Assembly (NCBI GenBank): GCA_903918315.1
Contig: CAIXEA010000040.1
Span: 1 to 64,000, forward strand
Length of the DNA: 64,000 nucleotides
DNA from: an uncultured Acetobacteraceae bacterium
GTDB taxonomy: Bacteria; Pseudomonadota; Alphaproteobacteria; Acetobacterales; Acetobacteraceae
Direction: 5' to 3'
Below are positions 3,571 to 43,401 of this stretch, piece by piece. The notes under the pieces are model-generated. The model was not told where the DNA came from. It did not search any database and worked only from the letters and a program-made list of their open reading frames with translations. A program made the position numbers and the translations under genes. Every line of letters starts with the position of its first letter. Positions within the stretch are counted from its first letter, which is position 1.

Positions 3571-4178
3571 CGATCGCCGCCATCAGCATGATGCGATGCC
3601 TGGACGGTGTCGGCATCGCGGCCTTTCGCCGTCACTGGCTCGACGTGCACGGACCGCTGGTTTGCTCATTCGCCGGGCTGCGCCGCTATGCACAGTGCCA
3701 CGTGATCGATACCGCCGCGACCAACCAGGCGGCGCGGGCGTTGGGCATCGATGGGTTCCCGATCCTCTATTTCGATCACGACGCGGACCGCGGTCTGGCC
3801 CATGGTTCAGCGGCGATGGCAGCGTGCAACATCGACTCCCGGCTGTTCATCGGGGCCGTGTCGCGGGTCATCACCGAACCGGTGGAGCTGATCCCGCCGG
3901 CTTCATCCCGGGGCCGCCTGTCCGCGATTGTCCTGTGTCCGGGCGGGCGCGACGCCGCCGCCATGGACGATGGGCTGCGCGCTGTCCCGCGGTTGCGGGG
4001 CCTGACCCGCTATGACGTGCGAGAGCAAGGCCCCGCCCCGGCCAGCACCGTCCCGTATCTGCCGGTGACGGTCGCGGGGGTGTTTCAGCTATGGTTCGAC
4101 AGTCTGATCGACCTGGAAGCGGCGATGGCGGGCTGCGAGGCGCCGGTCTTCGCGGTGGAGGAACATTGGCTGGTCTGA
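3567..4178 (+). CDS. EthD-like/dimeric alpha-beta barrel domain protein
   Basis: A 203-residue protein. The start is set at TTG 3567, overlapping the preceding stop (TTGA), with a GGGAGG ribosome site about 6 bases upstream. The longer frame starting at 3438 would lie inside the preceding gene. The N-terminal half has the EthD signature pattern F..HW...HGPLV and a later R.Y.Q.H-like segment, as in dimeric ferredoxin-fold proteins of degradation pathways. The second half is a weaker repeat of the same fold. It is coupled to the LVIVD gene and precedes a FAD-linked oxidase. No enzymatic role can be assigned. Confidence 0.72.
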   Translation: MTIAAISMMRCLDGVGIAAFRRHWLDVHGPLVCSFAGLRRYAQCHVIDTAATNQAARALGIDGFPILYFDHDADRGLAHGSAAMAACNIDSRLFIGAVSRVITEPVELIPPASSRGRLSAIVLCPGGRDAAAMDDGLRAVPRLRGLTRYDVREQGPAPASTVPYLPVTVAGVFQLWFDSLIDLEAAMAGCEAPVFAVEEHWLV

Positions 4179-4259
4179 GGGCGGATGCGATCACGGCCAG
4201 CCGGACTGGCCCCCAACCCCGTCTGACGATACGGTGCGCCCCGAAAGGACGCCCCGACC

Positions 4260-5687
4260 ATGCCCGATACCGCCCTCACGCTCCCCCTTCTGGACCAGAT
4301 CCGCGCCGTCGTCGGTGATCGGGGCCTGCTGACCGAGGCTTCGGACACCGCGCCTTACGCCCAGGACTGGCGCAAATTGTTCCAGGGCAGCACCCGCGCC
4401 GTGATTCGCCCGGGCACGACGCGGGAACTGGCCGAGGTCGTGCGCCTCTGCGCCGCCGCCGGTGCGCCCATCGTTCCGCAAGGCGGCAACACATCGATGG
4501 TCGGTGGCGCGGTGCCGAACGAAGATGGGTCGGAGCTGGTGCTCAGCACGGCCCGCCTGAACCGGATCCGCGACCTCGATCCTGTCGACATGACCCTGAC
4601 GATTGAGGCCGGAGTCACCCTGAAGGCCGCCCAGCTCGCCGCGGCGGAGCGGAACTGCCTGCTGCCGCTGTCCATCTCGTCCGAAGGCACCGCGCAAATC
4701 GGCGGTGTGCTGGCGGTCAATGCCGGCGGCAACAACACCGTCCGCTACGGCAACGCCCGCGATCTCGTGCTGGGGCTGGAAGTGGTGCTGCCCGACGGCA
4801 CGATCTGGAACGGGCTGCGCCGGCTGCGCAAGGACAACACCGGCTATTGCCTGCGCCAGCTCTTCGTTGGCTCGGAAGGCACGCTCGGCATCATCACCGC
4901 CGCCGTGCTGAAACTCGCCCCGGCGCCGAAAGACATCGCGGTTGCCTTCTGCGGGGTCGATAGTGTCGACAACGCCTTGCAGCTTTTCGCCCGGTTCCAA
5001 AGCCATGACGCCTCCGCCCTCAGTGCCTTTGAGCTGATGTCCGGCCTGGGCACGGATTTTGTGTTGAAGAACATCCCCAACGCGGTGCTGCCGTTGGCTG
5101 AGAAGGCGCCGTTCTACTGCCTCGTGGAACTCGCCACGCCGCGCCCGAACGGCGGCATGCGGCCCGCGATCGAAGAAGTGCTGGAGAAAGCGCTGGAGGA
5201 CGGAGTCGTCCTCGATGCCGCAATCGCCGAATCGGATGCCCAGCGCGCCGCCATCTGGCGCCTGCGGGAGGAGCATTCCGAAGCCCAGAAACGGGAGGGC
5301 GCGAGTGTCAAGAACGACGTCTCCGTCCCGGTCTCGAAGGTCCCGGCCTTCATCCGCAAGGCGACCATCGCCTGTGAGGCGCTGATTCCCGGTGTGCGAT
5401 GCGTGCCGTTCGGCCACATGGGCGACGGCAATATCCACTTCAATCTGGAACAGCCGGTTGGCGCGGACCCCGCGTGGTTCCTCGATCAGGACCACGCCAT
5501 CATGGAGGTGGTGAACGAGGTCGTGCGCGAATACGACGGCAGTTTCTCGGCCGAACACGGGATCGGCAAGTTGAAGCCTTACCTGATGCCGGACTGGCGG
5601 GGCGGGACGGAGCTGGCGATCATGCAACGGATCAAGGCCGCGCTGGACCCGGCCGGGATCATGAACCCGGGCAAGGTTTTGCCTTAG
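4260..5687 (+). CDS. FAD-binding oxidoreductase of the GlcD / D-2-hydroxyacid dehydrogenase type
   Basis: A 475-residue PCMH-fold flavoenzyme. The FAD-binding region includes VPQGGNTSMVGGAVP (residues about 77-91) and a GGVLAVNAGGNNTVRYGNARD stretch. The C-terminal cap contains the HMGDGNIHFN metal/substrate loop and EHGIGKLK, both hallmarks of the D-lactate, glycolate and D-2-hydroxyglutarate dehydrogenase family. It probably oxidises a D-2-hydroxy acid and passes electrons onward. No GlcE/GlcF partner genes are adjacent, so a stand-alone D-2-hydroxyglutarate/D-lactate dehydrogenase is more likely than glycolate oxidase. Confidence 0.9.
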   Translation: MPDTALTLPLLDQIRAVVGDRGLLTEASDTAPYAQDWRKLFQGSTRAVIRPGTTRELAEVVRLCAAAGAPIVPQGGNTSMVGGAVPNEDGSELVLSTARLNRIRDLDPVDMTLTIEAGVTLKAAQLAAAERNCLLPLSISSEGTAQIGGVLAVNAGGNNTVRYGNARDLVLGLEVVLPDGTIWNGLRRLRKDNTGYCLRQLFVGSEGTLGIITAAVLKLAPAPKDIAVAFCGVDSVDNALQLFARFQSHDASALSAFELMSGLGTDFVLKNIPNAVLPLAEKAPFYCLVELATPRPNGGMRPAIEEVLEKALEDGVVLDAAIAESDAQRAAIWRLREEHSEAQKREGASVKNDVSVPVSKVPAFIRKATIACEALIPGVRCVPFGHMGDGNIHFNLEQPVGADPAWFLDQDHAIMEVVNEVVREYDGSFSAEHGIGKLKPYLMPDWRGGTELAIMQRIKAALDPAGIMNPGKVLP

Positions 5688-5708
5688 TATAAAGGTCGGC
5701 TTGCGCCG

Positions 5709-6866
5709 ATGGTCCGTGTGCCGCAAAACCGCGCCATGCGCTCCGGCAAACTCGTCACCTGGCTCGACCGGTATATCTTCCGTCAGCTCCTGCTGGCGTT
5801 GCTTGCCGTGACCGGCGGGCTGACGGCGCTGATCTGGTTGACCCAGTCGCTGCGCTTCGTGGAGCTGGTGGTGAATCGCGGCCTGTCACTGGCGGTCTTC
5901 GTGCAACTCACCTCGCTGCTGATTCCCAGCTTCATCGCGGTCATCCTGCCGATCACGACCTATGTGGTGGTGCAATTCGTGTATCAGCGGCTGTCGGGCG
6001 ATCGGGAACTGACGGTGATGCGCGCCGCCGGCGTGTCGCCTTTCGCGATGGCGCGCCCGGCTTTGACGCTTGCCTTGGCGGTCACGGTGTTCGGCTATGT
6101 CCTGAATTTGTGGGCCGTGCCGGCCACGCTGACCGCGTTCCGGCAATTCCAGTGGGAGATCCGCAATCACGTCGTGGCCTTCCTGCTGCAGGAAGGCGTG
6201 TTCACCGCGGTGTCGGAAAATCTCACCGTTTATGCGCGAACCCGTGACCCCGACGGCACGCTGCACGGCATCCTGGTGGAAGATGGCCGCGACCGGAATG
6301 CCCATGCCACCATTTTCGCGGAAAGCGGCCGTTTGCTGGAAGGGCCGCGCGGGCCGCGGGCCCTGCTGCTGGATGGCAGCCGGCAGGAGATCGACCACGC
6401 GACCAGCCGCCTGAACACGCTGACATTTGAGCAGAACGAGCTGGATCTGGCGGAACGCGCCACCGAGGAGGGCGTGCGCCCGCCCGATATGGCGGATGTC
6501 AGCCTGGCCCAATTGCTGAACCCCACGCTGGCGACCCCGCGCGACAAGGCCAAATGGGTGGCGGAGGGGCATAAGCGCATGGCGGGTCCCCTGTCCTCCC
6601 TGTCGTTCTGCTCGGTCGCCTTGCTGGCGGTGCTGCGCGGCACATTCCGGCGTCACGGCGGCTTTATCCGCCCGCTGGTCGCCGTCGGCTCCGTGGTGGC
6701 GCTGTTGGCCTTCGGGCTGGCGATCAACAATCTCGCGGCCCGCAACAATGCGCTGATTCCGATGATCTGGGTGCAGGCGGTGTTGCCTGGCGTGATTTGC
6801 CTCTGGTGCCTGTTCGTGCCGGACTGGTACTCCCTCCGGCGCGATCCCGCGCGTCTGGCGGCATGA
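5709..6866 (+). CDS. lptF: LPS export ABC transporter permease LptF
   Basis: A 385-residue YjgP/YjgQ-family permease. It begins with an N-terminal membrane segment after LDRYIFRQLLLALLAV, has two more in the first 110 residues, a periplasmic beta-jellyroll part (about 140-260) and C-terminal membrane helices. It forms the LptB2FG complex that lifts lipopolysaccharide to the LptCADE bridge. ATG 5736 is an alternative start. The gene is followed after 4 bases by lptG and then lptD-surA, a clear outer-membrane biogenesis block. Confidence 0.93.
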   Translation: MVRVPQNRAMRSGKLVTWLDRYIFRQLLLALLAVTGGLTALIWLTQSLRFVELVVNRGLSLAVFVQLTSLLIPSFIAVILPITTYVVVQFVYQRLSGDRELTVMRAAGVSPFAMARPALTLALAVTVFGYVLNLWAVPATLTAFRQFQWEIRNHVVAFLLQEGVFTAVSENLTVYARTRDPDGTLHGILVEDGRDRNAHATIFAESGRLLEGPRGPRALLLDGSRQEIDHATSRLNTLTFEQNELDLAERATEEGVRPPDMADVSLAQLLNPTLATPRDKAKWVAEGHKRMAGPLSSLSFCSVALLAVLRGTFRRHGGFIRPLVAVGSVVALLAFGLAINNLAARNNALIPMIWVQAVLPGVICLWCLFVPDWYSLRRDPARLAA

Positions 6867-6870
6867 GCGC

Positions 6871-7983
6871 ATGAACGTCTCCGTCACCTTGTCCGCCTAT
6901 ATTTCGCGCCAGTTCATGCTCGCGGTCACGGGCATGCTGCTGGGCCTCGCCGGTCTCGTGTCGATGTTCGACTTCATCGAACTGTTGCGCCGTTCCGCGA
7001 GCAAACCCGACGCGACCTTTGGCATCGTCAGTCAGATCGCGGGGCTGCGGCTGCCCTTCATCGCCATCCAGATCCTGCCCTTCGCGGTGCTGTTGGGGGG
7101 CATTCTGTGTTTCTGGCGGCTGACCCGCTCGTCCGAGCTGATCGTCGCCCGGGCCGCCGGCATTTCCGCCTGGGAGTTCCTGGCCGCACCGACATTTTGC
7201 GCGGCCCTGTTCGGCTTGCTCGCCACGGCGGCCGTCAGCCCGGTCGCGTCCATCATGCTGGGCCGGGCGGAAGCGATCGATAACGCGGTCCTGCGCACCG
7301 GCGGCGGGCCTTTGGCGCTCAATGGCGGGCAACTCTGGTTGCGCCAGTCTGACCATGCCCTGGTGCCGCAGGGCGTGGCGATCATCCACGCCCAGAGTGT
7401 CGGTTTGCGCGGCCAGGTCCTGGCTGCCCAGCAGGTGAGTGTCTTTCGGCTCGATGGCAATGACCACCTGCTGGCCCGAATCGAGGCCGCCGAGGCCACG
7501 CTTGGCGACGGTGCCTGGCAGTTGGAAAGTGCCCGCACCGTGCGCTCGGACCAGCTTCCCGAGCCCTTGCATGCCATCGCCCTGCCGACGGACCTGACTG
7601 TCTCGCGGGTGCAGGACAGTTTTGCGTCTCCGGACACGCTGTCGGTCTGGGCGCTGCCTGATTTCATCGGTTTGCTGGAACGCTCGGGCTTTTCATCCAT
7701 TCGCCATCGCCTGCATTTTCAGACCCTGCTGGCGTTGCCGCTGCTTTCCGGCACAATGGCGCTCGTATCCGCTGGCTTCTCGATGCGTCCGGCGCGGCGG
7801 GGCGGGGTGGCGCGGATGATCGGGGGCGGGGTTGCGACCGGGTTCGCGTTGTTCATGGTATCGAAGATCGCGGCTGAATTCGGCCAGTCCGGCGCGCTGC
7901 CGGTCGCACTGGCCGCATGGGCGCCGGCCTTGGCGGGGTTGATGCTGGCGCTGGCGTTGTTGCTGCATACGGAAGACGGTTGA
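6871..7983 (+). CDS. lptG: LPS export ABC transporter permease LptG
   Basis: A 370-residue paralogue of LptF. It starts LSAYISRQFMLAVTGMLLG, has three N-terminal membrane segments, a periplasmic beta domain around residues 140-260, and three C-terminal membrane segments ending near 368. It acts with LptF and the LptB ATPase, which is not in this window. It is spaced 4 bases from lptF and 2 bases from the lptD start, so the three are translated from one message. Confidence 0.93.
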   Translation: MNVSVTLSAYISRQFMLAVTGMLLGLAGLVSMFDFIELLRRSASKPDATFGIVSQIAGLRLPFIAIQILPFAVLLGGILCFWRLTRSSELIVARAAGISAWEFLAAPTFCAALFGLLATAAVSPVASIMLGRAEAIDNAVLRTGGGPLALNGGQLWLRQSDHALVPQGVAIIHAQSVGLRGQVLAAQQVSVFRLDGNDHLLARIEAAEATLGDGAWQLESARTVRSDQLPEPLHAIALPTDLTVSRVQDSFASPDTLSVWALPDFIGLLERSGFSSIRHRLHFQTLLALPLLSGTMALVSAGFSMRPARRGGVARMIGGGVATGFALFMVSKIAAEFGQSGALPVALAAWAPALAGLMLALALLLHTEDG

Positions 7984-30037: not shown

Positions 30038-31378
30038 ATGCCAAGCGTACATGCCGGGGCACGGCTAGACCGGCTTCCCATTTCCCGTTTCCACCGCCGC
30101 GTCTTCGCGCTCGTCGGCATCGGGATGTTTCTCGATGGCTTCGACATCTATCTCGCGAGCGCCGTGCTCGGTGCGACGCTGCAATCCGGTTTCGCGACCA
30201 TGCAGCAAAATGCGCTGTTCGTGTCATCCACCTTCATCGGGATGATGATCGGAAGCGTGACCGCCGGCTTCGTCGGTGACCGCTACGGGCGCTGCTTCAC
30301 CTATCAGGTCAATCTGGCGCTGTTCGGCTTCGCCTCCCTCGCGGCGGGCTTTTCCTGGAACATGGAAACGCTGATCGTCATGCGCTTCTTCATGGGCCTG
30401 GGCCTCGGTGCGGAAAACGTCGTCGGCTACGCGACCTTGACCGAGTTCATCCCCGCTCGCGCCCGCGGCCGCTGGCTGGGCATCATGGCAATGATCGTCG
30501 CCCTTGGCCTGCCGGTATCGATCCTTCTCAGCACCTATCTGATCCCCACCCATGGCTGGCGGATCATGTTCTTCATCGGTGGGATCGGCGGTCTGGCGGT
30601 TTGGTGGATCCGTAAGTCCCTGCCGGAAAGCCCGCGCTGGCTGGAAGCCGTCGGCCGCGATCTGGAGGCAGAGACCATGCTCCAGCAGGTCGAAGCCGAG
30701 TGCACGGAAGATCTGCCCGAAATCGTGCTGCCGCCCGCGGGCCCGCCGGCGACATTCGGTGCGCTGTTCCGCCCGCCGCTCTTGCGCCACATGATCGTGG
30801 GCAGCCTGGCGCTGATGATCATCAACACGATCATCCATGGCTATGTCACCTGGCTGCCGTCCTTCTTCATTCGGCAGGGCATGTCGATGACCAGCTCCTT
30901 CAAGCTGGCGCTGGTGATGGCCATTGGGGCGCCCATTGGCGGGGCCTGCGCCGCCTTCGCCGCTGACCGCATCGGCCGCAAGCCGACCGTTGGGCTGGCG
31001 TGCGTGCTCGCCATCGGGGTGGCCTGGTTCTATCCGGGCATCAAAGACCCGGCGCTGCTGCCATTCGGCGGCCTCGCGCTGACCGCGCCCATCTTCATCC
31101 TGTATTCCATGCTGTTCGGCATCTACGTTCCGGAACTGTTCCCAACCGAGGTGCGCCTGCGGGCCGCCGGTATCTGCAACATGTTCGGCCGCGGCGGCAC
31201 CATCATCACCCCGTTCATCGTGGTGTCCCTCTTCGACACCGGCGGTGTGCAAGCCGTGACGACCATGATGATCGGCCTGCTCGCCGCGCTCGCCGTGGTG
31301 GTGGTGGTGCTGGGGATCGAGCCACGGCGGGTCAGCCTGGAACAGATGAACGCAGCCAACCCGCTACCGGCGGAATAG
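30038..31378 (+). CDS. MFS transporter (AAHS / sugar-porter-like)
   Basis: A 446-residue major-facilitator permease with about 12 membrane helices. The motif GDRYGRC follows helix 2 (near residue 87) and its second-half counterpart ADRIGRK is near 309. FLDGFDIYLASAVLG in helix 1 is typical of aromatic-acid/H+ symporters and related carriers. It likely imports an organic acid or sugar by proton symport. An AT-rich 190-base leader after the terminator may hold its promoter. The molybdoenzyme gene follows 15 bases later. Confidence 0.88.
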   Translation: MPSVHAGARLDRLPISRFHRRVFALVGIGMFLDGFDIYLASAVLGATLQSGFATMQQNALFVSSTFIGMMIGSVTAGFVGDRYGRCFTYQVNLALFGFASLAAGFSWNMETLIVMRFFMGLGLGAENVVGYATLTEFIPARARGRWLGIMAMIVALGLPVSILLSTYLIPTHGWRIMFFIGGIGGLAVWWIRKSLPESPRWLEAVGRDLEAETMLQQVEAECTEDLPEIVLPPAGPPATFGALFRPPLLRHMIVGSLALMIINTIIHGYVTWLPSFFIRQGMSMTSSFKLALVMAIGAPIGGACAAFAADRIGRKPTVGLACVLAIGVAWFYPGIKDPALLPFGGLALTAPIFILYSMLFGIYVPELFPTEVRLRAAGICNMFGRGGTIITPFIVVSLFDTGGVQAVTTMMIGLLAALAVVVVVLGIEPRRVSLEQMNAANPLPAE

Positions 31379-34026: not shown

Positions 34027-34875
34027 TTAACGGCCCTTGAACACCCCTTTACGCTTTTCAATGAAGGCACGGCGCGCTTCGACCGCGTCTTCCGACTGCT
34101 GTAGGATGCCGCCGGCGTTGGAGGTCAGGACCATCGTCTGTTCCAGCGTGCTGTCCTGCGCGGCGCGCATCACGCGCTTGCTGATCCACTGCACCAGCGG
34201 CGGGATGGTCAGCATCCGGGCGCAGAGCGCGCGGGTGGTGGCTTCCAGCTCCTCCGACGGTACCAGGTGGTTCAGCATGCCCCAGCGGTAGGCGGTTTCG
34301 GCATTGACCTCCCCGGTATAGGCCAGCTCCAGCGCGCGGCCGAGGCCGATCATCTTGGGGAGGTAATAGCAGCCGCCGTTTTCGATGATCTGACCGGCGT
34401 TGTGGTAAGCGATGAAGCGGGTTTTGTCGCAGCCGATACGGATATCGCAATGCAGCGCCATATCCATGCCGGAGCCGACGGCGGCGCCGTTGATCATGGC
34501 GATGGTGGGTTTGCGGATCAGCGAGATATCGCGATGCAGATCGGTGAAGCCATGGAAGAAGTGCTGCCGCGCCGCATCCGGCCCGTCATGCGCGCCGCGA
34601 TTGCCGGGGAAATTCTCTCCCTTGTCTTCGCCCCCATTGCGGGAGCCGAGATTGGCGCCGGAGCAGAAGCCACGCCCGACGCCGGTCAGCACGATCACCC
34701 GCACATCCGGATCGTCATCGCCGGCGCGCATATATTCGCCGACTTTGGCGACGGTGCTGTTTTCCTCGGCGGTGCCGACGAGGGCGTTCATCCGCTCCGG
34801 CCGGTTGAACTTGATCCAGAGGATGCCGTTATCCTCTTTCTCATAGAGCAGGTAATCGACGAGCCTGGGGCCCAT
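34027..34875 (-). CDS. Enoyl-CoA hydratase/isomerase family protein
   Basis: A 282-residue crotonase-fold protein. The oxyanion-hole segments are SGANLG (about residue 72) and AVGSGMDMA (about 130). Where hydratases carry catalytic Glu pairs the second position is less clear, so substrate and reaction are open. The terminal RKGVFKGR is typical of the family. It is on the minus strand together with a NIPSNAP gene just upstream. A second crotonase gene occurs at 44384-45154. Confidence 0.88.
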   Translation of the reverse strand: MGPRLVDYLLYEKEDNGILWIKFNRPERMNALVGTAEENSTVAKVGEYMRAGDDDPDVRVIVLTGVGRGFCSGANLGSRNGGEDKGENFPGNRGAHDGPDAARQHFFHGFTDLHRDISLIRKPTIAMINGAAVGSGMDMALHCDIRIGCDKTRFIAYHNAGQIIENGGCYYLPKMIGLGRALELAYTGEVNAETAYRWGMLNHLVPSEELEATTRALCARMLTIPPLVQWISKRVMRAAQDSTLEQTMVLTSNAGGILQQSEDAVEARRAFIEKRKGVFKGR

Positions 34876-34901
34876 GGTTGTTTCCTCCTGTTATTGTTCG
34901 C

Positions 34902-35228
34902 TTACGGGTGCGGGCCCCAGGGCGCGGCGGTCAGAAGTTTGACTTCCTGGGTGGCGACCAGCGGGCGGAATTTCGCGGCGAAGCCATCGATGAAGTCGCT
35001 GCTTGCGAACACCGCTGCCCAATGCGCCCGCCGATCGGCGTCATCGTCGAATTTCCAGATGTGGACGAGCTGGTTGATCATGCCGGTATCGGCCTGGAAA
35101 TAGCCCACGAGCTTGGCGTCGTGGCCGCCCTTCTGCAGGGCGGGGAAGCCGAATTGCTGATAGAGTTTGACCGCTTCCCCCATCTTGCCGACATGCAGGG
35201 TGTAGGTGCGCATTTCATACAACGCCAT
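34902..35228 (-). CDS. NIPSNAP family protein
   Basis: A 108-residue dimeric alpha/beta-barrel protein, starting MALYEMRTYTLHVGKMGEAVKLY and containing NQLVHIWKFDDDADRRAHW, both NIPSNAP family signatures. Function is not established; it is often linked to degradation of small molecules. It lies 26 bases before the enoyl-CoA hydratase gene and is divergent from the SMP-30 gene across about 90 bases. Confidence 0.85.
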   Translation of the reverse strand: MALYEMRTYTLHVGKMGEAVKLYQQFGFPALQKGGHDAKLVGYFQADTGMINQLVHIWKFDDDADRRAHWAAVFASSDFIDGFAAKFRPLVATQEVKLLTAAPWGPHP

Positions 35229-35320
35229 GGACCGGAACCTCCGTGAAGTGAGGTCCTCAGTTTGCCGTCGGGCGCGGATCGGTGTCCACTGCCGGCCATC
35301 CGCTCAGGAGGAGATGAGAC

Positions 35321-36268
35321 ATGAGCCAAAGCCGTTGGGACCGTTCCAGCCCCATCCGTTACCCCGATCCGGACATCATCGTCCTGGATCCACGCTTCCA
35401 GCACATGGTGCTGGGCCACGCCGCGATCGAGCGTATCGCGACCGGTTTCCGCTTCACCGAAGGCCCCGCTTATTACGGGGATGGGCAGTATCTGCTGTTC
35501 TCCGACATTCCCAACAACGCGCTGCTGCGCTGGGATGAGATCACGGGCCAGGTCGCCACGCTGCGCAATCCCGCCGGTTACCCCGATGGCAATACCCGCG
35601 ATCGCCAGGGTCGCCTGATCACCTGTGAGCTCGGCAGCCGCACGCTGACCCGGACCGAACATGATGGGACGGTGACGGTGCTGGCCTCGCATTTTGAGGG
35701 CGTGCAGCTGACGGGCCCGAATGATGTGGTGGTGAAATCGGACGGGTCGATCTGGTTCAGCGACAACGGCGCGGGCATCCGCGGCAATTACCTGGGCGAC
35801 AAGGCGGAACCCGGGCTGCCGTATCGGGTCTACCGGCTTGATCCCGATAGCGGCGCGCTGACCATCGCGGTGGGGGATATGCTGCGCCCGAACGGGCTGG
35901 CGTTCTCCCCGGACGAGTCGCGGCTTTATGTGGTGGATACGCCCTCTGGCCCCAAAACCACGCATGTCTATGACATCGTGGATGGCAAGGCGGTGAACGG
36001 GCGCGTGTTCTTCGACGCGACTCCGGGCTACGCGGATGGGATCCGTGTGGATACCGAGGGCAATGTCTGGGCCGGCTTCTCGGGCGGGGAGGGCCAGGAT
36101 GGCGTCGCCATCTTCGCCCCCGACGGCACCCTGATCGGCCGCATCCTGCTGCCGGAGCGCTGCGCCAATCTATGCTTTGGCGGCCGCAAGCGGAACCGGC
36201 TGTTCATGACGGCGAGTCAGTCGGTTTACGCGCTGTATGTGGAAGCGCAGGGCTGCAAGGGCGGTTAG
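35321..36268 (+). CDS. SMP-30/gluconolactonase family lactonase
   Basis: A 315-residue six-bladed beta-propeller lactonase. GFRFTEGPAYY near residue 45 gives the N-terminal metal-ligand Glu. GPNDVVVKSDGSIWFSD (about 130-146) and the RPNGLAFSPDESRLYVVDT segment (about 190-208) supply Asn and Asp ligands. AGGAGGAG at 35305-35312 precedes the ATG. It hydrolyses sugar or other lactones in the presence of Ca or Zn. Confidence 0.9.
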   Translation: MSQSRWDRSSPIRYPDPDIIVLDPRFQHMVLGHAAIERIATGFRFTEGPAYYGDGQYLLFSDIPNNALLRWDEITGQVATLRNPAGYPDGNTRDRQGRLITCELGSRTLTRTEHDGTVTVLASHFEGVQLTGPNDVVVKSDGSIWFSDNGAGIRGNYLGDKAEPGLPYRVYRLDPDSGALTIAVGDMLRPNGLAFSPDESRLYVVDTPSGPKTTHVYDIVDGKAVNGRVFFDATPGYADGIRVDTEGNVWAGFSGGEGQDGVAIFAPDGTLIGRILLPERCANLCFGGRKRNRLFMTASQSVYALYVEAQGCKGG

Positions 36269-36356
36269 ACCAAGGCCGGTTTCGGCTGCACCGGGAGCGA
36301 TCAACTTTTGGGGTTTGCGAGCGGCGCGGGGGCTGCTATCCACTGCCCCCGTCGCT

Positions 36357-36446
36357 GGAGAGATGGCCGAGTGGCTTAAGGCGCACGCTTGGAAAGCGTG
36401 TGTACGTGCAAACGTACCCAGGGTTCGAATCCCTGTCTCTCCGCCA
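36357..36446 (+). tRNA. tRNA-Ser (anticodon GGA)
   Basis: A 90-nt type II tRNA. The acceptor stem GGAGAGA (36357-36363) pairs with TCTCTCC (36436-36442), with discriminator G and an encoded CCA (36444-36446). The anticodon loop CTTGGAAAG has GGA at 36391-36393. A long variable arm and the T loop GGTTCGAATCC are present. It stands directly upstream of an unusual five-gene operon, a common insertion position for genomic islands. Confidence 0.97.
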
Positions 36447-36583
36447 CCCGACCAATCCAGGGTTGGGTCGGCGTCCCGGGGCCAGCGCTCCGGTCGATGT
36501 TGCAAAATGGACCAGCCAGCGCTTATCCTTTGCCATATGCCATCTTCGTCATGGCGCGGCTTGCGGCGTTCGGAGTGGGAACG

Positions 36584-36868
36584 ATGCTGAGGATCACATC
36601 CGCGCAGTTGGAAGCGTTGAGCGCTGTTCTCCCAAACCAGCCCGTCATTGCCGGCTGTTCGGAGTCCCGAACCTGGATCAGCATCGAGTTGCGCGACGAC
36701 GATGACCAACCGGTCGCTGGCGCGCGGTACCGGCTGAGATTGCCCGATTTCACCGAGACCGAGAGCGTTCTGGACGACGCCGGCCGGGCGCGTGTCGATG
36801 GCATCATGGCCGGAACCTGTCAGGTCTCCTTTCCCGACATCGATGCGCGAGAATGGTTCCCGGTCTGA
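36584..36868 (+). CDS. Small transthyretin-like/carboxypeptidase-regulatory-type beta-sandwich protein
   Basis: A 94-residue protein, no signal peptide. ATG 36584 is preceded by GGAGTGGGA. Residues 31-90 (WISIELRDDDDQPVAG ... DDAGRARVDGI ... CQVSFPDID) form the compact beta repeat that I know from small proteins and domain extensions encoded next to VgrG/PAAR spike genes of type VI secretion loci. This comparison is from memory of the family, not from a search. It is the first gene of a tightly packed operon: its stop overlaps the next start as TGATG. Confidence 0.68.
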   Translation: MLRITSAQLEALSAVLPNQPVIAGCSESRTWISIELRDDDDQPVAGARYRLRLPDFTETESVLDDAGRARVDGIMAGTCQVSFPDIDAREWFPV

Positions 36869-37506
36869 TGCCATCCCATGTGATCGCACCCGGTGAGTAT
36901 CTGTCCCTGATCGCGGATCAAGCCGGTTTCCGCGACGCGATGACCGTCTGGAATGCCACGGAAAATGCCGATTTGCGCCAACAGCGCGACAATCCGGGGG
37001 TGATGCTGCCGGGTGACACATTGTTCGTGCCCGACAAGCAGGACAAGAAGATCGGCAAGCCGACCGGCGCGCATCACGTGTTCCGGGTCGTAACGGATAA
37101 ATTATGGTTACGCCTTGTGCTTGTTGATTTCGATAACCAGCCGATCGCGAATACGGCCGTGGTTCTGGAGGTGGAGGGGGCTTCGTTCGCCCTCACCACC
37201 GACGCTGACGGAAAGATCGAGCATGCGGTGCCCCGGCATGCCCGCAAGGGCGTGCTGAAGGTCGCCTCCCTGGAACTGGAGCTGCCGCTCGACATCGGCA
37301 TGCTCGATCCGATCGAAGCGGAGGCCGGGTGGAAAGCGCGGCTGGCGACGCTCGGCTATTACCATGGCGATCCCGATGATCCCGACCACGACAACGAACG
37401 ATGGGGCTGGGCGCTTGAAGAGTTTCAATGTGACCACGCCTTGACCATCACCGGGCAGGCTGACGACGCCACCCGCGCCAGACTACTCGATCTGTTCGGC
37501 AGCTGA
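36868..37506 (+). CDS. LysM-like and peptidoglycan-binding domain protein
   Basis: A 212-residue protein without a leader. ATG 36868 overlaps the preceding stop (TGATG). Residues 3-56 are LysM-like (HVIAPGEYLSLIADQAGF, then NPGVMLPGDTLFVPD). Residues 73-145 form a beta domain (FRVVTDKLWLRLVLVDFDNQPIANT ... TDADGKIEHAVP). Residues 150-210 are a PG_binding_1-like helical unit (RLATLGYYHGD ... LEEFQCDHALTITGQADDATRARLLDLFG). I recall this three-part design from T6SS/contractile-system cargo loci. It probably binds cell wall or joins a spike complex. Confidence 0.72.
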   Translation: MPSHVIAPGEYLSLIADQAGFRDAMTVWNATENADLRQQRDNPGVMLPGDTLFVPDKQDKKIGKPTGAHHVFRVVTDKLWLRLVLVDFDNQPIANTAVVLEVEGASFALTTDADGKIEHAVPRHARKGVLKVASLELELPLDIGMLDPIEAEAGWKARLATLGYYHGDPDDPDHDNERWGWALEEFQCDHALTITGQADDATRARLLDLFGS

Positions 37507-37524
37507 TGAGGGGACCGTCCGGCC

Positions 37525-38988
37525 ATGCCCAGTGACAACGCGGTCGATGCGGATGGCGCCGAGTTCGTTTTGGCATCCGGCCTGGAGGGACAGGTCAGCA
37601 GCCATCCCGATACCCCGAGCCAGACCAAGGCGTTCGTTGCCCCCACCCTGGCGGACCGCACGAATACCATCGGCCTCGACATCGTTCCCGTCGCGTGTCT
37701 GAGCCTCAATGATATTCTGTTCGAATTCGACTCTTCCTTTATCATCCCCGACGCAGTGAAGATTTTCCGGCATTTGCCGGCGTTGCGGTCCCGCCATGCC
37801 AGCCTGACCGGCGGACCGCCGTTGCTGAGCGTCTTTGGCCATGCCGATCCGGTGGGGGAGGACGCGTATAACAAGACCCTCAGCGGCCGCCGCGCCAAGG
37901 CGGTTTATGGGGTGCTGACCGGCGATGCGTCGGTCTGGCTGGAGCTGGAGAAAACGCCGTTTGGCGGCGACAACTGGGCGGCCAAAGGCGTCGCGGCGCG
38001 CATGGCCCGCGCGCTTGGGCGCCCATCGGGGCCGTCGGCGGCGGCTTTGACCCCGGACTACCTGCGCCTGCTCAATCCCACGCCGGTCACCAAGGCCGAT
38101 TTTCTGGGGCGTGGCGCCGATCCGGGTGGCAAGGCCGATTACCAGGGGTGCGGCGAATTTAATCCGCTGATTATCCTGTCGAAGCAGGACGGCACCAAAC
38201 TCACCAAGGCGCAGCGCGATGCCGCGAACGCACCCGATCGGCGGGTGGTGGTGTTTTTGTTCAGCGCGCTCCGCACGATCAATCCTGATCTCTGGCCTTG
38301 CCCACGCGCGTCGGAGGGGCCGGGCCAATGCCGCAAGCGATTCTTCGCCAACGCAGCGACCCGGCTGGCGGCGGGCGCCGTGCGGCGGGAGCACAAAGAG
38401 CCGCAGCCCGGTGTCAGCGATCCGACGGTGGCCGATGATACCTTCGCCTGCCGCTTTTATCAGCGCATCGCCGGGCCCTCCCCCTGCGAAAAGATCCTGC
38501 GGATGTATCAACTCCGCCTGTTCGACGAAGTCGCGGCGCCGTTGCCCTTCGCGCCCTATACGATCACCAGCGGCCGGCGTGTCATCCCCGGACGCGCCGA
38601 CGCCGGTGCGATCGTGACGGTCCATGATCTGAAGGTCCCCGCGACCGCCACGGTGAAATGGAGCCGCCCGAAGGCCAGCGACGACGCAAGCGCGCCCGAT
38701 CCGGCGCCCGGCGCCACGTTTGATTTTGAGCTCGATGTGTTCGTCGATCTGCCGGACGATGATGACAGCGACGCGGTGGCGCTGCAGCGGCTGAGCAACC
38801 TCGGATACGTGCTGGGCCTGAAACAGGCCGATGATATCGCGGCGTTCCAGCGCGATTACGCATCCAAACTGCCGCCGAGCACCCTGGATCGGCCGGGCGT
38901 GCTGGATGGGCCGACCAAAAAGGCGATCAGCGACGCGCATAAGGACGCCGAACCGCTGGTCAAGACCAACGACCGGTTCAAGGCCTGA
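37525..38988 (+). CDS. OmpA-fold and peptidoglycan-binding multidomain protein
   Basis: A 487-residue protein without a leader. Residues 62-131 are OmpA/MotB-like (ILFEFDSSFIIPDA, then FGHADPVGEDAYNKTLSGRRAKAVYGVL). A Cys-rich middle follows (WPCPRASEGPGQCRKRFF and TFACRFYQRIAGPSPCEK, about 255-330). A beta domain around 335-385 repeats the style of the two preceding proteins. The C-terminus (about 425-480) is a PG_binding_1-like unit. Shared domain vocabulary with its neighbours argues for one complex. The related proteins I recall lie beside type VI spike genes. Confidence 0.72.
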   Translation: MPSDNAVDADGAEFVLASGLEGQVSSHPDTPSQTKAFVAPTLADRTNTIGLDIVPVACLSLNDILFEFDSSFIIPDAVKIFRHLPALRSRHASLTGGPPLLSVFGHADPVGEDAYNKTLSGRRAKAVYGVLTGDASVWLELEKTPFGGDNWAAKGVAARMARALGRPSGPSAAALTPDYLRLLNPTPVTKADFLGRGADPGGKADYQGCGEFNPLIILSKQDGTKLTKAQRDAANAPDRRVVVFLFSALRTINPDLWPCPRASEGPGQCRKRFFANAATRLAAGAVRREHKEPQPGVSDPTVADDTFACRFYQRIAGPSPCEKILRMYQLRLFDEVAAPLPFAPYTITSGRRVIPGRADAGAIVTVHDLKVPATATVKWSRPKASDDASAPDPAPGATFDFELDVFVDLPDDDDSDAVALQRLSNLGYVLGLKQADDIAAFQRDYASKLPPSTLDRPGVLDGPTKKAISDAHKDAEPLVKTNDRFKA

Positions 38989-38992
38989 CGCC

Positions 38993-41875
38993 GTGGTCAC
39001 GCCCGTCGTCGCAACCCCCAGGCCGCCGAAGATCCCGCTGCTGATTGAGGTTGTGGACGGCTTCAAGAACCCCCTGGCCGGGGTGGAGATTGAGGTCACG
39101 AATTTCCGGACCGATCCCGATGACCCGCGCACCCATGTCACCCGCCCGGGCGGTAATGCCGGGCGCGCCAATTTTGGGATGGTCGATCCGCGGATCGATT
39201 TCGATATCAAGGTCCGCAGGGATGGGTTCGGCCCGCCCGGAAACCCCTTCTCGCCGGGCGATGCCGGCGTCGTCGAAACCGCCCACGCCGATGGGTCCGC
39301 GATCCGGCTGGTGCTGACCCGGAACATCGCCTTGCTGACGGTGCAGGTGATGGACCTGACCACCAACGCCCCGCTGCCGCTGGCCAGCGTGGGAATCGAC
39401 GGCCGAACCGGAAACCCGATGCCGTTGTCGAACGGCCGCGGCCTGGTGTGGCCGGTCGATGTGCCGGTTGAAACCCCGATCCGCTATCACGCTGAAAAGG
39501 CCAACTACGGCCCCCTGCCGGGTGGCACGCCGTTCAACCAATTGGTCGAGGCAACCCGCAGCCTGCACGATGGCGAGTCGGTGGTCGTCACCCTGGGCCT
39601 GCATCAGGCGCCGCTGGTTTCACCGAAAATCGACCAGGCAAAATTATTGCTGGTCGCGAAGAAGCCGCACACCAAACCGGCGCGAAAACCGCTTGTATTC
39701 CGTATCGATGCGCCCTTCGACGGCAAGGGCACGGTTGCCTTGACCGGGACCGGCAGCGTGCGGTTCTTCGACGCGCTCACGGCGGGGAATGAAATTCCCA
39801 CCAACCGCGATTTCACGGCGGCGGAGCTTACGAACGGCTTCACCGTTTTCGTCGAAGGCGTCAGCGGCACCGATAAGGAAGACGACCTGACGCTGACGCT
39901 GACCCTCAGCGGTGGCACCAAGACCAAGCTGGGGCCGGCCAAGACCACCATCACGGTGGTTGAGGCCACGCTGGATATCTTCCAAAGCCGCACGGCGCGT
40001 GGCGTCGACCCGGCGCCCCTGTCCGCCGCGGCCAAGCTCAACCCCGGCCGGTTCGTGCATGTTCAGGTCGGCGGCTTTCATGGCCGGGCGAAGTTGATGG
40101 TCAAGCTGATCAAGCCGGACAATTTCAGCGGAACCTTCGTGCTGACACCGCGGCCCCCCGCGGGCGGTGCTGTCGCATTGTTCGCGGGCAATCTGGAAGT
40201 CGCCGGTGGGGCGGAGACCGCCCTGGGCAATCCGCATGAATTCGCCGCCTCCACGGCCAAGGCCGGGCTCGCCTTCTTCGCTGAAGGGCGCGGGGTGAGT
40301 GGCGCGCTGTCCGACACCGGATATCGTCTGGGCATCAAAGGCCTCGATGACGACATCGACCATGTGGTCATGACGGTCGTGCAGTTCAGCAAGCTTGTTG
40401 CGCAGGTGCCGACGACCCCGCCGATGACCAGCCGGGCCAACAACGCGGTGACCCCGGACCATGATGCCGTGACCATCGGGGACCCCGGGACGGACCCCAA
40501 CGCCTTCAACGAAGAACTCGGGTTCAATCAGCCCCTGGTCCTGATCGAGAACTCGGTTTTGGCGGCGCGGCCGGTCAAACTGTCGGTCCAGGTCGCGCCA
40601 GCGGGCGTGCCGGTCCTCTGGAGCGCGCGCCGCGACACGCGGCCGGCCGGCGCGGGCGATGCGCCGGCGATCCTGACCCTCAATCCCGCGCCGGCGGCGC
40701 AGCCGACGCTCACGGGCAGCGGGTTGACGGCAACCCTTCTGGCGAATTCCGTGGGTACTTTCAATGTCTGCGCCTATGTCGATTGCAACGGCGACGCAGC
40801 GCATGATTTTAACGATAAGACGTCCGGATTGCGGATTGATCGTGAGCCGTTCATCATGCTCAATCTCGTGCTCGTGCGCGTTCAGGGGTTTTCGAACGCC
40901 AGCCGCGCGCATCCCGAAAATGCCCGGGTCATCGAAAGCGTGACGGCCGCGGGACCGCCGCCGCGAAAATCCATCAGGGCCATAACCGGTGAGCAGTCGG
41001 TCGCGCTCGCGAACCCGGCGAATTCCGGCGTTCACAACGACGCGGTCATCACCCTGATCGGGGGCGGGCGAAACGGGCGCGCGGGTCTCGATCAGGTCTT
41101 CGCCGGCTGGGTGAACAATGTGACGGGAATGAACTCGGTCGCCACATACGTGCAGGCCAATCCGCCCGTTGTGCACACCGCGACGGCGATCATGGCGCTG
41201 AACACGATCGCGATGCTGTCGCCACCGGTCACGCAGGCGAACATGGTGACGCGCTTCATTGGTGCGATGCCGGTTGGACTGCCCGCGGCCTTCAACGCGT
41301 CCACGCTGGCACCGTCGATCATTGCGACGCCGCTTCGGGTGCTCGATGTCAGCCCGTTTGCCGACGCGGGCACGGGCGGCCATACAGCCGTTGGGACGGA
41401 AGGGGCGGTGCCGCCTCGTCCGAAAATTCCGGTCGTGCGGACCGATCTGCCGGCCGCGGGGCACGCTTTGGCGATCGGTCAGGACTGGCGGGTGCAAATG
41501 TTCGACAGCCCCAGCTTCGCGGCGACGTCCCATCATCCGGCAGATCCGCTGGTGCCCTTGTCCACGTTTACGTTCAATGTCGATTTCACCTGCGATCTCT
41601 GCGTTTGGACCAACCGGTTCGGGGTTCCGGGTCCGACCACCGATGCGGCCTGCCACCTCTATTCGACCGTTCAGACCAACACCTGGCATGTCGGATTTGA
41701 CACGTCCTTTGGCCCGCCGCCCGCGGTCGCACTGACGGTGAACACCAAGACCATCACACTCCAACCCGACGGATTGCCGCAACGGGCATCGGCCGCTGTC
41801 GATTCGACCACGGTTCCGGTCGAGGTGCGGTTTCCGACCGGTCTCTCCATGTGGGCTCTGGATTGCCGCACATGA
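38993..41875 (+). CDS. 960-residue beta-rich protein of unknown function
   Basis: The start is set at GTG 38993, 4 bases after the preceding stop. A longer frame to 38831 overlaps the upstream gene. No leader or membrane segment is seen. The N-terminus (about 10-110) is Ig/transthyretin-like: PLLIEVVDGFKNPLAGVEIEVTNF. A second such unit begins at LLTVQVMDLTTNAPLPLASV. Later parts are beta-rich with no catalytic motif that I can identify. The C-terminal 300 residues (AVITLIGGGRNGRAGLDQVFAGWVNN) could be an effector-like domain, unassigned. Its stop overlaps the next start as ATGA. Confidence 0.65.
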   Translation: MVTPVVATPRPPKIPLLIEVVDGFKNPLAGVEIEVTNFRTDPDDPRTHVTRPGGNAGRANFGMVDPRIDFDIKVRRDGFGPPGNPFSPGDAGVVETAHADGSAIRLVLTRNIALLTVQVMDLTTNAPLPLASVGIDGRTGNPMPLSNGRGLVWPVDVPVETPIRYHAEKANYGPLPGGTPFNQLVEATRSLHDGESVVVTLGLHQAPLVSPKIDQAKLLLVAKKPHTKPARKPLVFRIDAPFDGKGTVALTGTGSVRFFDALTAGNEIPTNRDFTAAELTNGFTVFVEGVSGTDKEDDLTLTLTLSGGTKTKLGPAKTTITVVEATLDIFQSRTARGVDPAPLSAAAKLNPGRFVHVQVGGFHGRAKLMVKLIKPDNFSGTFVLTPRPPAGGAVALFAGNLEVAGGAETALGNPHEFAASTAKAGLAFFAEGRGVSGALSDTGYRLGIKGLDDDIDHVVMTVVQFSKLVAQVPTTPPMTSRANNAVTPDHDAVTIGDPGTDPNAFNEELGFNQPLVLIENSVLAARPVKLSVQVAPAGVPVLWSARRDTRPAGAGDAPAILTLNPAPAAQPTLTGSGLTATLLANSVGTFNVCAYVDCNGDAAHDFNDKTSGLRIDREPFIMLNLVLVRVQGFSNASRAHPENARVIESVTAAGPPPRKSIRAITGEQSVALANPANSGVHNDAVITLIGGGRNGRAGLDQVFAGWVNNVTGMNSVATYVQANPPVVHTATAIMALNTIAMLSPPVTQANMVTRFIGAMPVGLPAAFNASTLAPSIIATPLRVLDVSPFADAGTGGHTAVGTEGAVPPRPKIPVVRTDLPAAGHALAIGQDWRVQMFDSPSFAATSHHPADPLVPLSTFTFNVDFTCDLCVWTNRFGVPGPTTDAACHLYSTVQTNTWHVGFDTSFGPPPAVALTVNTKTITLQPDGLPQRASAAVDSTTVPVEVRFPTGLSMWALDCRT

Positions 41876-42873
41876 TCATGGGGGAGCGGCTGAGGCGCCG
41901 GCGATTGCTCGGCTGCCTGGCTCTCCCGCTCGTTCGTCCCCGCAATGCGGCTGCGCAGCCGCGAGGAGCCATTCGTATGGACCCGACGCCCAGCCCATCG
42001 CCATCCGTTATCCTGCATGCGACGCATATCGTATCAATCCGCCTGACCGCCTTGCATGCGGACGCCTGGCACCCCGGCCCCGGCGGCTTTGAGGCGCGCG
42101 CGGTGCACCTGGATGGTGTCATCGATGCCGTTCTGAAAGGGGCGATCGCGGCCGGGCCGGGCGCGGGATTCGCGGCCCAGATCACGCAATTCGACAACCC
42201 GTCGGCCGCCGGCGTGCCGATCCCGGGCCTCTGGACGCCCGTGGCGCTGGAGGTCGGGACGACGGTCATCGTGTTCGCCGCCGTGACCGGTGTCACGCCC
42301 GCCCCTGCGGCCCTGCTGGCGGAGCCACCGGCGATCGCCGTCCGGGACGGCTGGGAGCGGCCCTCGATCTGCCTGGCACTGCGCCATGCCGCCGGTGACG
42401 TCAGCGCGCTGGACCTGCTGCATGCGGCCGCGTCCTCACCCTTTGGCTTTACATTCGTGGACTATCTGGCAGCGGTGACCCCGAACCCCGCCTTCGCGCG
42501 GGGGGTGGCCTTCGGCGCGCTGCTCGATCTGATGTCGGCGCCCGGCGTGACCGCGCCGGTCCGTGGCGCCTTGGTGTCCGTCGTGATCAGCACGGTGCGC
42601 GGGGGCGGCGGCTTCAGCGACCGCCATTTGAACCGGCTGATCATCGCCCTGCTGCGCCTGGCCGTCCTGGGCCCGGCGGGCGAACTGCGAGGGACCCTGC
42701 TGACCGTGGACATCCCCATCCTCACGGGGGTGCGGGGAGGGGAACTGCGCAGCGCCGCCGCCGTGTTTTCCGGTGATCCAGCCGATCGGCTTGTGCTGTT
42801 GTCGGCGCTGCGAAAGCAACCGGATTGGCCTGGGGCCGCGCGGCTGATCCAGTGGCTGGGCGGCGCGTTTTGA
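41872..42873 (+). CDS. 333-residue protein of unknown function, last gene of the operon
   Basis: ATG 41872 overlaps the previous stop (ATGA), so it is translationally coupled. The N-terminus MIMGERLRRRRLLGCLALPLV is Arg-rich and then hydrophobic and could be a leader. If so, this is the only exported member; a later ATG (MDPTPSPSPSV) is an alternative. The body has a VEGTTV-like beta part (about 130-165) followed by a helical, Leu/Ala-rich C-terminal half. No family is recognised. By position it could be an immunity or adaptor protein for the large upstream gene. Confidence 0.6.
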   Translation: MIMGERLRRRRLLGCLALPLVRPRNAAAQPRGAIRMDPTPSPSPSVILHATHIVSIRLTALHADAWHPGPGGFEARAVHLDGVIDAVLKGAIAAGPGAGFAAQITQFDNPSAAGVPIPGLWTPVALEVGTTVIVFAAVTGVTPAPAALLAEPPAIAVRDGWERPSICLALRHAAGDVSALDLLHAAASSPFGFTFVDYLAAVTPNPAFARGVAFGALLDLMSAPGVTAPVRGALVSVVISTVRGGGGFSDRHLNRLIIALLRLAVLGPAGELRGTLLTVDIPILTGVRGGELRSAAAVFSGDPADRLVLLSALRKQPDWPGAARLIQWLGGAF

Positions 42874-42963
42874 CCGCGTCACGCAATCAGCCTTGCGGCA
42901 CTGAGGCGGTCAGGCCATCAAGCGGCGTGATGGCGCCCGGTCCGCGCCGATAGGAGTTTTGCG

Positions 42964-43401
42964 ATGACACGTCAGGTCGACCAGGGCAAAGCCCTGGCCG
43001 CGTTCCAACGCGCCTGTGCCGGCACCAAGGAAGAGTTCGGCGATTTCTTCCTGACGCGCCTGCTCGGGCTGGAGATCACCTATCCCGGCGACGCCTGTGA
43101 GGTCGCGTTCGAGGTGGAGGATTTCATGCTCAACCCCCGTGCGACCCTGCATGGCGGCGTGCTGGCGACGGCCCTGGATATCTGCATGGGGCACCTGATC
43201 AATCACCAGGCCAGCCCCGGCGCGACGCTGGAGTTGAAGATCCAGTATCTCGACGCCGCCACACGCGGCCGCGTGGTTTGCCGCGGCGAAGCCTTGCGCC
43301 GCGGCGGCACCTGGTTCCTGCGTGCCGACGCCCGGGATTCGGCGGGCACGTTGATCGCCTATGCCACTTCGACCTGGAAATTGTTGCGTAAACCAAAATA
43401 A
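42964..43401 (+). CDS. PaaI family (hotdog-fold) thioesterase
   Basis: A 145-residue hotdog thioesterase. Residues about 58-75 (NPRATLHGGVLATALDICMG) carry the HGG motif with the Asp on the long helix that activates water in PaaI-type acyl-CoA thioesterases. Length is normal for a single-domain member. It is separated from the preceding operon by 90 bases and is likely independent. Confidence 0.88.
   Translation: MTRQVDQGKALAAFQRACAGTKEEFGDFFLTRLLGLEITYPGDACEVAFEVEDFMLNPRATLHGGVLATALDICMGHLINHQASPGATLELKIQYLDAATRGRVVCRGEALRRGGTWFLRADARDSAGTLIAYATSTWKLLRKPK

Follow-up and report, generated by a model that had tools for sequence, protein, structure and literature searches.

A vgrG-free operon behind a tRNA-Ser gene of an uncultured Acetobacteraceae bacterium, a likely cargo module for the organism's own type VI secretion system

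Loading of cargo on VgrG spikes

VgrG, the spike protein of the type VI secretion system (T6SS), can carry a C-terminal tail of transthyretin-like (TTR) fold, and such tails recruit effectors directly or via an adaptor (PMC7043769, PMC6560169). The examples that come closest to the present case are VgrG1 of enteroaggregative Escherichia coli (EAEC) with Tle1, and VgrG2b of Pseudomonas aeruginosa with its adaptor Tla3 (PMC6560169, PMC7043769). Here a five-gene operon (g1–g5, open reading frames at 36584–42873) is described from the first 64,000 nucleotides of contig CAIXEA010000040.1 of an uncultured Acetobacteraceae bacterium (assembly GCA_903918315.1); this whole stretch is termed the window. 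The g1 product is homologous to the VgrG tails and would likewise recruit cargo. In contrast to the TTR-tailed VgrGs, however, the tail is here a separate 94-residue protein, and the genome's only VgrG is tail-less.

Among the six domain families described from vgrG loci in stand-alone as well as in fused form are LysM and PG_binding_1, but not TTR (PMC10673891). In Ketobacter, an effector binds VgrG only if a LysM protein is present (PMC10673891). The g2 product has both of these folds and can be compared, by domain content, with the Ketobacter LysM protein and with Burkholderia BRPE67_05220 (PMC10673891). As at the published LysM loci (PMC10673891), relatives of g2 adjoin vgrG, and the relative at locus L044 directly precedes an amidase gene (loci are given by L numbers and genomes by G numbers); the operon of g2 itself, in contrast, has no vgrG. 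In Myxococcus xanthus, vgrG, effector and immunity genes form a set (vgrG2-tsxE-tsxI) apart from the main T6SS cluster (PMC5801462), and the present operon would resemble it in having an effector and an immunity gene away from the main cluster and in the involvement of LysM. The Myxococcus set differs in that it keeps its own vgrG and in that LysM is part of its effector (PMC5801462). Other T6SS accessory proteins have also been described (PMC13373197). The loading domains of the present operon are known ones, here in a vgrG-free operon with the spike tail as a separate protein. No paper on a stand-alone transthyretin VgrG tail was found in the literature searched, the coverage of which is incomplete, and this is weak evidence that such tails are unreported.

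The closest counterpart in gene order is locus L037, a Zixibacteria T6SS cluster that reads ClpV, VgrG, g1, a 606-residue gene, g2 and g3. It shares with the operon the order g1, g2, g3 and the tail-less VgrG. It differs in that the kit is part of the machine cluster, g1 and g2 are separated by a gene, and the places of g4 and g5 are taken by other genes.

A VgrG tail as a separate protein and its companions

It is likely that the operon serves as a VgrG-free cargo module for the organism's own T6SS. A profile was built from six fused VgrG tails, with free-standing copies excluded, and used to search 3427 sequences. These were 500 shuffles of g1 and the stop-to-stop frames (50 residues or longer) of the window, the organism's own T6SS contig and ten loci. 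Nine sequences match at E ≤ 1, the g1 frame with E = 1.4e-21 and none of the 500 shuffles. Among the 1044 sequences of the window and the T6SS contig, the g1 frame is the only match. The profile also finds the free-standing copies at L037, L045, L033 and L047 and the weak tail of the L042 VgrG (1.5e-5). Weaker matches are two L037 proteins, one related to g2 and one to g3 (0.0017 and 0.003), and an L036 frame that overlaps a second g2 relative (0.021), a hint that g2 and g3 relatives may carry beta domains related to g1.

Direct comparisons point the same way. The g1 protein shows 39% identity (E = 3.8e-17) to residues 692–776 of the VgrG of Candidatus Thiodictyon syntrophicum, and 43% identity to a 173-residue protein of Eleftheria terrae. 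A search of 72,556 plasmid records gave two matches for g1 and the same two for g2; these records are from the two organisms just named, and in the Thiodictyon record vgrG lies immediately upstream of the g2 relative. A g1 family profile searched against the PDB gives, among its weaker matches, the effector domain of P. aeruginosa VgrG2b (6h56, E = 0.016) and residues 783–831 of a putative T6SS protein (6sjl, E = 0.045). We take 6sjl to be EAEC VgrG1, and the stretches matched in 6h56 and 6sjl are presumably the TTR regions. The sister entry of 6sjl, 6sk0, is named EAEC VgrG (PMC10673891). Homology identifies g1 as a VgrG tail domain that is encoded separately, and its fold is probably transthyretin-like. 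An initial annotation, made from the letters of the DNA alone, had described g1 as a small beta-sandwich protein and missed that it is a detached VgrG tail.

The distribution of tails was compared in ten VgrGs, nine of them aligned and that of L042 assessed by search. Three are tail-less, those of the own genome (677 residues), L037 (687) and L045 (690), and exactly these three have a free-standing g1. Fused tails are present in six (L032, which is the Thiodictyon record, L038, L039, L041, L046 and L049; 779–873 residues), although L032 and L041 are close relatives (VgrG 97%) and not independent; the L042 tail is weak. In the organism itself g1 is not covalently joined to VgrG, as it is encoded by its own gene, and VgrG lies on another contig. 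Loci L033 and L047 resemble the window in having free g1 and g2 and no VgrG in the sequence fetched.

The two loci last named also have a large protein in common (L033 14418–18440 and L047 8958–13031; 924 and 794 residues, alike at 28–41% in pieces), which has no Pfam match.

The g2 product matches PG_binding_1 (Pfam, E = 8.1e-7), as had been proposed. The LysM part of that proposal finds no match by Pfam, and is recovered with a 16-sequence g2-family profile, which matches solved LysM chains (the phage tail tube initiator gp61, E = 3.7e-4, and LytE, 0.0058). The genomic surroundings of g2 relatives were surveyed at 22 loci, 18 from a genome scan with a three-sequence g2 alignment, two from plasmid records and two from a further genome search. 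Twelve of the 18 genome loci (L036–L047) have full-length matches, and VgrG is present at seven of these 12. In the whole survey VgrG is found at nine loci (L032, L037, L038, L039, L041, L042, L045, L046 and L049); as a yardstick, the own genome holds one VgrG in 5.04 Mb. VgrG lies immediately upstream of the g2 relative at L032, L038, L039, L041 and L049, the last being a half-length match at a contig end. Other T6SS core genes are present at five of the 22 (L037, L038, L045, L046 and L049), and PAAR accompanies VgrG at L032, L041, L042 (weak) and L046. The earlier statement that similar proteins occur near VgrG and PAAR genes is thus borne out, and homologues do adjoin T6SS genes. By these comparisons g2 belongs to a LysM/PG_binding_1 family often encoded with VgrG. 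When 385 genomes of the class were searched with the g2 alignment, 200 had matches; among the matches listed, only those in the own genome (G000) and in G436 are full length, and the remainder mostly involve the common PG_binding_1 part. At the G436 locus (L157, 7578–10409), the two genes after the g2 relative encode proteins of 402 and 334 residues for which Pfam gives no match, and neither VgrG nor g1 is found in the 20 kb fetched.

The OmpA fold proposed for g3 is matched below the models' own cut-offs, both in Pfam (E = 2.2e-4) and with the PA1041 anchor model of NCBIfam (1.6e-8). Relatives of g3 are located directly after g2 at L037 (40% identity, and 36% for a second copy) and at L036 (46%, cut by the contig end). 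On this basis g3 is a member of an OmpA-like family found behind g2 in a T6SS cluster. Nothing similar to g3 was found in plasmids and viral contigs, and the phage-family matches of the operon proteins are confined to two families of unknown function on the OmpA-like stretch of g3.

The neighbours of g2 and the relatives of g4 were scanned with Pfam (20 entries, a 390-residue L032 gene being included twice) and NCBIfam (10 entries). Firm matches are TPR repeats in one L037 gene and the peptidoglycan amidase encoded directly after the g2 relative of L044 (Amidase_2, E = 2.4e-23). Matches to Zn_dep_PLPC in L046 (E = 0.0043) and to metallopeptidases in L061 (0.042) and L042 (0.033) are marginal, and most others gave nothing. 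Some of these proteins look caspase-like or nuclease-like on inspection, an impression to which no weight is given here. The genes that adjoin g2 at L037 (16882–18015) and L036 (3792–4973) encode proteins of similar appearance, judged by eye, with stretches of conserved His and Cys; Pfam gives no match for that of L036.

A T6SS usually has 13 core components, and all 13 are present in the same genome, on a contig (C146) other than that of the operon. Pfam identifies TssA, TssB, TssC (two genes), TssE, TssF, TssG, TssH (ClpV), TssI (VgrG), TssJ, TssK, TssL, TssM and Hcp, as well as FHA, TagF, PP2C and ImpE proteins. The count of 13 is also that given in the literature (PMC6684961). The one PF05954 spike protein of the genome is the C146 VgrG; it is encoded close to the contig end, and its adjoining genes may lie elsewhere. 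The two genes with TssC (VipB) sheath domains are consecutive (C146, 18027–21134).

Loading in trans of cargo onto this machine is the best reading of the operon. An orphan cargo set that uses a machine encoded elsewhere had been one suggestion of the initial annotation, and it is supported by the relationship of g1 to VgrG tails, the g3 relatives in a T6SS cluster and the core set on C146. The annotation was also right about a contractile system, although it did not see that the machine is specifically a T6SS.

The candidate effector and immunity protein

The middle domain of g4 (residues about 206–468) is common to two myxobacterial proteins with HExxH motifs. Residues 231–468 match two adjacent regions of a 1012-residue protein of the Myxococcales genome G458 (E = 1.5e-25 and 4e-21), and residues 239–464 match part of a 773-residue protein (E = 2e-8) of the same genome, which is also the source of L052 and L053. 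The HExxH motif is near the end of both proteins; in Pfam, one of them has a marginal match of reprolysin type (E = 0.042) and the other has none. No VgrG was found near the two genes in the 15.4 and 8.8 kb fetched. Zinc-metallopeptidase activity was considered for g4 and rejected, as g4 has no HExxH, and it would then be a different effector that shares a carrier domain.

In 2161 frames of 100 residues or more, the longer motif HExxHx5H is present 10 times, relative to a shuffle mean of 2.05. L061 contributes two of these, one being a partial second copy, and the count includes the close relatives L032 and L041. The window has one such frame, on the minus strand at 30227–31363. At L061, the gene of the 773-residue g4 relative (3710–6031) and a short frame (7012–7344) have the same HExxHx5H, as if part of the gene had been duplicated.

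Matches to g4 are found in three of the 385 class genomes, the own one included, with the other two matching about 60 residues; in one (G458) of the 19 genomes and records behind the surveyed loci; in one of 235 genomes of the phylum of G458, again G458 itself; and not in plasmids and viral contigs. For the C-terminal half (residues about 469–960), the searches made gave no relative other than one class genome in which about 60 residues match (E = 8.9e-4), in a frame interrupted by a stop.

As g4 has no known toxin domain and g5 has no relative and a doubtful leader, their functions are assigned from position. An effector role for g4 is fairly probable, and the chances that g5 is an immunity protein are about even. 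The g1 and g2 proteins are probably loading factors. According to the proposed mechanism, g1 would dock on the common VgrG or replace its missing tail, and g2, with g3, would bind the effector and bridge it to the spike. The effector g4 would be injected into a neighbouring cell, its unshared C-terminal half perhaps being the active part, and g5 would confer protection on the producing cell, probably in its envelope. Through their wall-binding folds, g2 and g3 might keep the effector at the target cell's peptidoglycan; alternatively, these folds may simply be protein-binding modules of a loading complex.

This raises the question of whether VgrG tails have become detached genes more widely, such that one universal tail-less spike is served by interchangeable vgrG-free cartridges that load in trans. 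Each cartridge would consist of a tail, a LysM bridge, an OmpA accessory protein, an effector and an immunity protein. The idea is tentative, with a somewhat less than even chance of being correct. If true, arsenals could be swapped without moving spike genes, and they would escape effector searches anchored on vgrG. Such searches often start from spike genes, and one scan reached up to three genes downstream of each vgrG (PMC10673891); a module with only a detached tail and a bridge would thus be missed. Pairs of g1 and g2 may therefore provide a search handle for hidden effector arsenals, and a free tail makes cargo docking on the spike testable with small separate proteins.

Alternative readings

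Several results weigh against a T6SS cargo module. The g1 family profile has as its top PDB match a biofilm surface protein (E = 3.9e-6), and further adhesins are listed. Thirteen of the 22 surveyed g2 loci are without VgrG, and some of these are long stretches (L033, 30.6 kb; L043, 20.6 kb; L157, 20 kb; L040, 17.3 kb; L047, 17.1 kb); others lie on small contigs (L036, 6.3 kb; L044, 9.8 kb, where g2 is right at the start) or are loci where the g2 match is LysM-only (L050–L053 and L158) or half-length (L048). The five genes of the operon include no VgrG, Hcp or PAAR by Pfam, and no PAAR_motif (PF05488) protein was found in the own genome, where DUF4150-type tips were not sought. The link between the operon and C146 is based on genome content alone. 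Neither g4 nor g5 has a significant family match in Pfam, phage families or NCBIfam; g4 has no known toxin domain and no HExxH, and g5 has no relative in family libraries, plasmids or the PDB. The start of g5, RRRRLLGCLALPLVRPRNAAAQ, is leader-like by eye, and it does not stand out in a 15-residue hydropathy scan. A promoter scan of 36250–43100 gave a single promoter-like site, on the minus strand and not above shuffles, and none upstream of g1.

The PDB match of g1 also fits a reading in which the proteins form a cell-wall complex of the producer, with LysM, OmpA and PG-binding folds that anchor a beta-rich surface protein and no role in secretion. Domains of the types present in g2 and g3 bind the cell wall in the settings from which they are best known, and g4 is beta-rich by eye and has a weak CarboxypepD_reg-like match at its start (Pfam, E = 0.079). 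However, g1–g4 have no export leader by eye, in agreement with the initial annotation, g1 is homologous to VgrG tails, and relatives of g2 and g3 are located within a T6SS cluster. A new wall-associated complex, the other suggestion of that annotation, is not supported, and we regard it as very unlikely. A somewhat different possibility is a decayed T6SS island that has lost its former vgrG and is on the way out or non-functional, with g1 as the remnant tail of a lost fused VgrG. The five loci with VgrG directly upstream of g2 fit such a history, as there is none here. Yet the five frames are intact and tightly coupled, with a coding-type composition, and g1 is also free-standing at L033, L037, L045 and L047, at L037 and L045 beside a tail-less VgrG; decay is thus unlikely.

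The cargo might also belong to an extracellular contractile injection system (eCIS) or a phage tail instead of a T6SS. LysM proteins are core eCIS parts and are found in phage baseplates as well (PMC10673891), and it should be pointed out that the g2 profile matches a phage tail tube initiator. Against this stand the location of the genome's one PF05954 protein in a T6SS cluster, the absence of g2 relatives from 50,697 phage records and, by pattern scan, from viral contigs, and the contractile neighbours of the relatives, which matched T6SS proteins (eCIS proteins were not used as queries). As no g2 relatives were found in phage records or viral contigs, this origin was rejected as the principal explanation, and it is highly improbable. 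A cargo module for the organism's own T6SS is the reading retained.

Genomic site and layout of the operon

The features of the locus are collected in Table 1. The initial annotation of five packed genes directly after tRNA-Ser(GGA) is confirmed; all five open reading frames are intact. The junctions it gave, TGATG (g1/g2), four bases (g3/g4) and ATGA (g4/g5), are correct, and the 18 bases between g2 and g3 had been left unmentioned. There is another in-frame ATG for g1 at 36551.

Table 1. Features of the operon and its boundaries (positions in the window)
Feature	Position	Strand	Remarks
tRNA-Ser(GGA)	36357–36446	+	ARAGORN; only tRNA of the window; left boundary of the module
g1, 94 residues	36584–36868	+	Detached VgrG C-terminal tail by homology, probably a transthyretin-like adaptor domain
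g2, 212 residues	36868–37506	+	LysM, middle beta domain, PG_binding_1; probable T6SS cargo-loading protein
g3, 487 residues	37525–38988	+	OmpA-like N-terminal part, middle with cysteines; putative accessory protein, relatives in a T6SS cluster
g4, 960 residues	38993–41875	+	GTG start; probable effector
g5, 333 residues	41872–42873	+	Candidate immunity protein; closes the operon, overlaps g4 at ATGA, start leader-like by eye
Thioesterase-superfamily gene	42964–43401	+	Right boundary; 97% protein identity in G026; DNA similarity from 42953

Third-position guanine plus cytosine (GC) content is 0.74–0.83 in g1–g5 and 0.81 in each of the neighbouring SMP-30 and thioesterase genes. Four long antisense open reading frames have 0.58–0.76, so that one of them cannot be separated from g1 and g2 by this measure.

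In G026, the closest relative compared, 91% DNA similarity extends over window positions 34027–36453, tRNA included, and ends seven bases past the tRNA. Similarity resumes at 42953 with the thioesterase gene, which in G026 is on another contig and behind a different gene. The module therefore fills a gap between conserved flanks, these being on separate contigs in G026. The comparison places the module boundary at the 3′ end of the tRNA, and insertion of the module at the tRNA is suggested. Of the other signs of insertion, a second copy of the 25-base tRNA end is not present in the window, with up to three mismatches allowed, and Pfam shows no integrase among the five module genes, to which this screen was confined. 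Beyond the tRNA, G026 continues with a different sequence, with two frames that match neither Pfam nor PHROGs. This other unannotated stretch (L159, G026 contig C599, 2548–5503) begins right after the same tRNA-Ser(GGA), and the tRNA may thus be a recurrent insertion point.

Of the 98 genomes searched, which include 32 other members of the genus, the own one alone has a full-length g3; partial matches in 20 other genomes are within residues 18–180, around the OmpA-like stretch. That the operon represents core genes of the genus was rejected on g3, the one gene searched, which is absent from the 32 genus members.

The flanking genes examined are metabolic or surface-related. They encode two enoyl-CoA hydratases, an SMP-30 family protein, the thioesterase, a PEP-CTERM protein and part of a molybdopterin-binding dehydrogenase.

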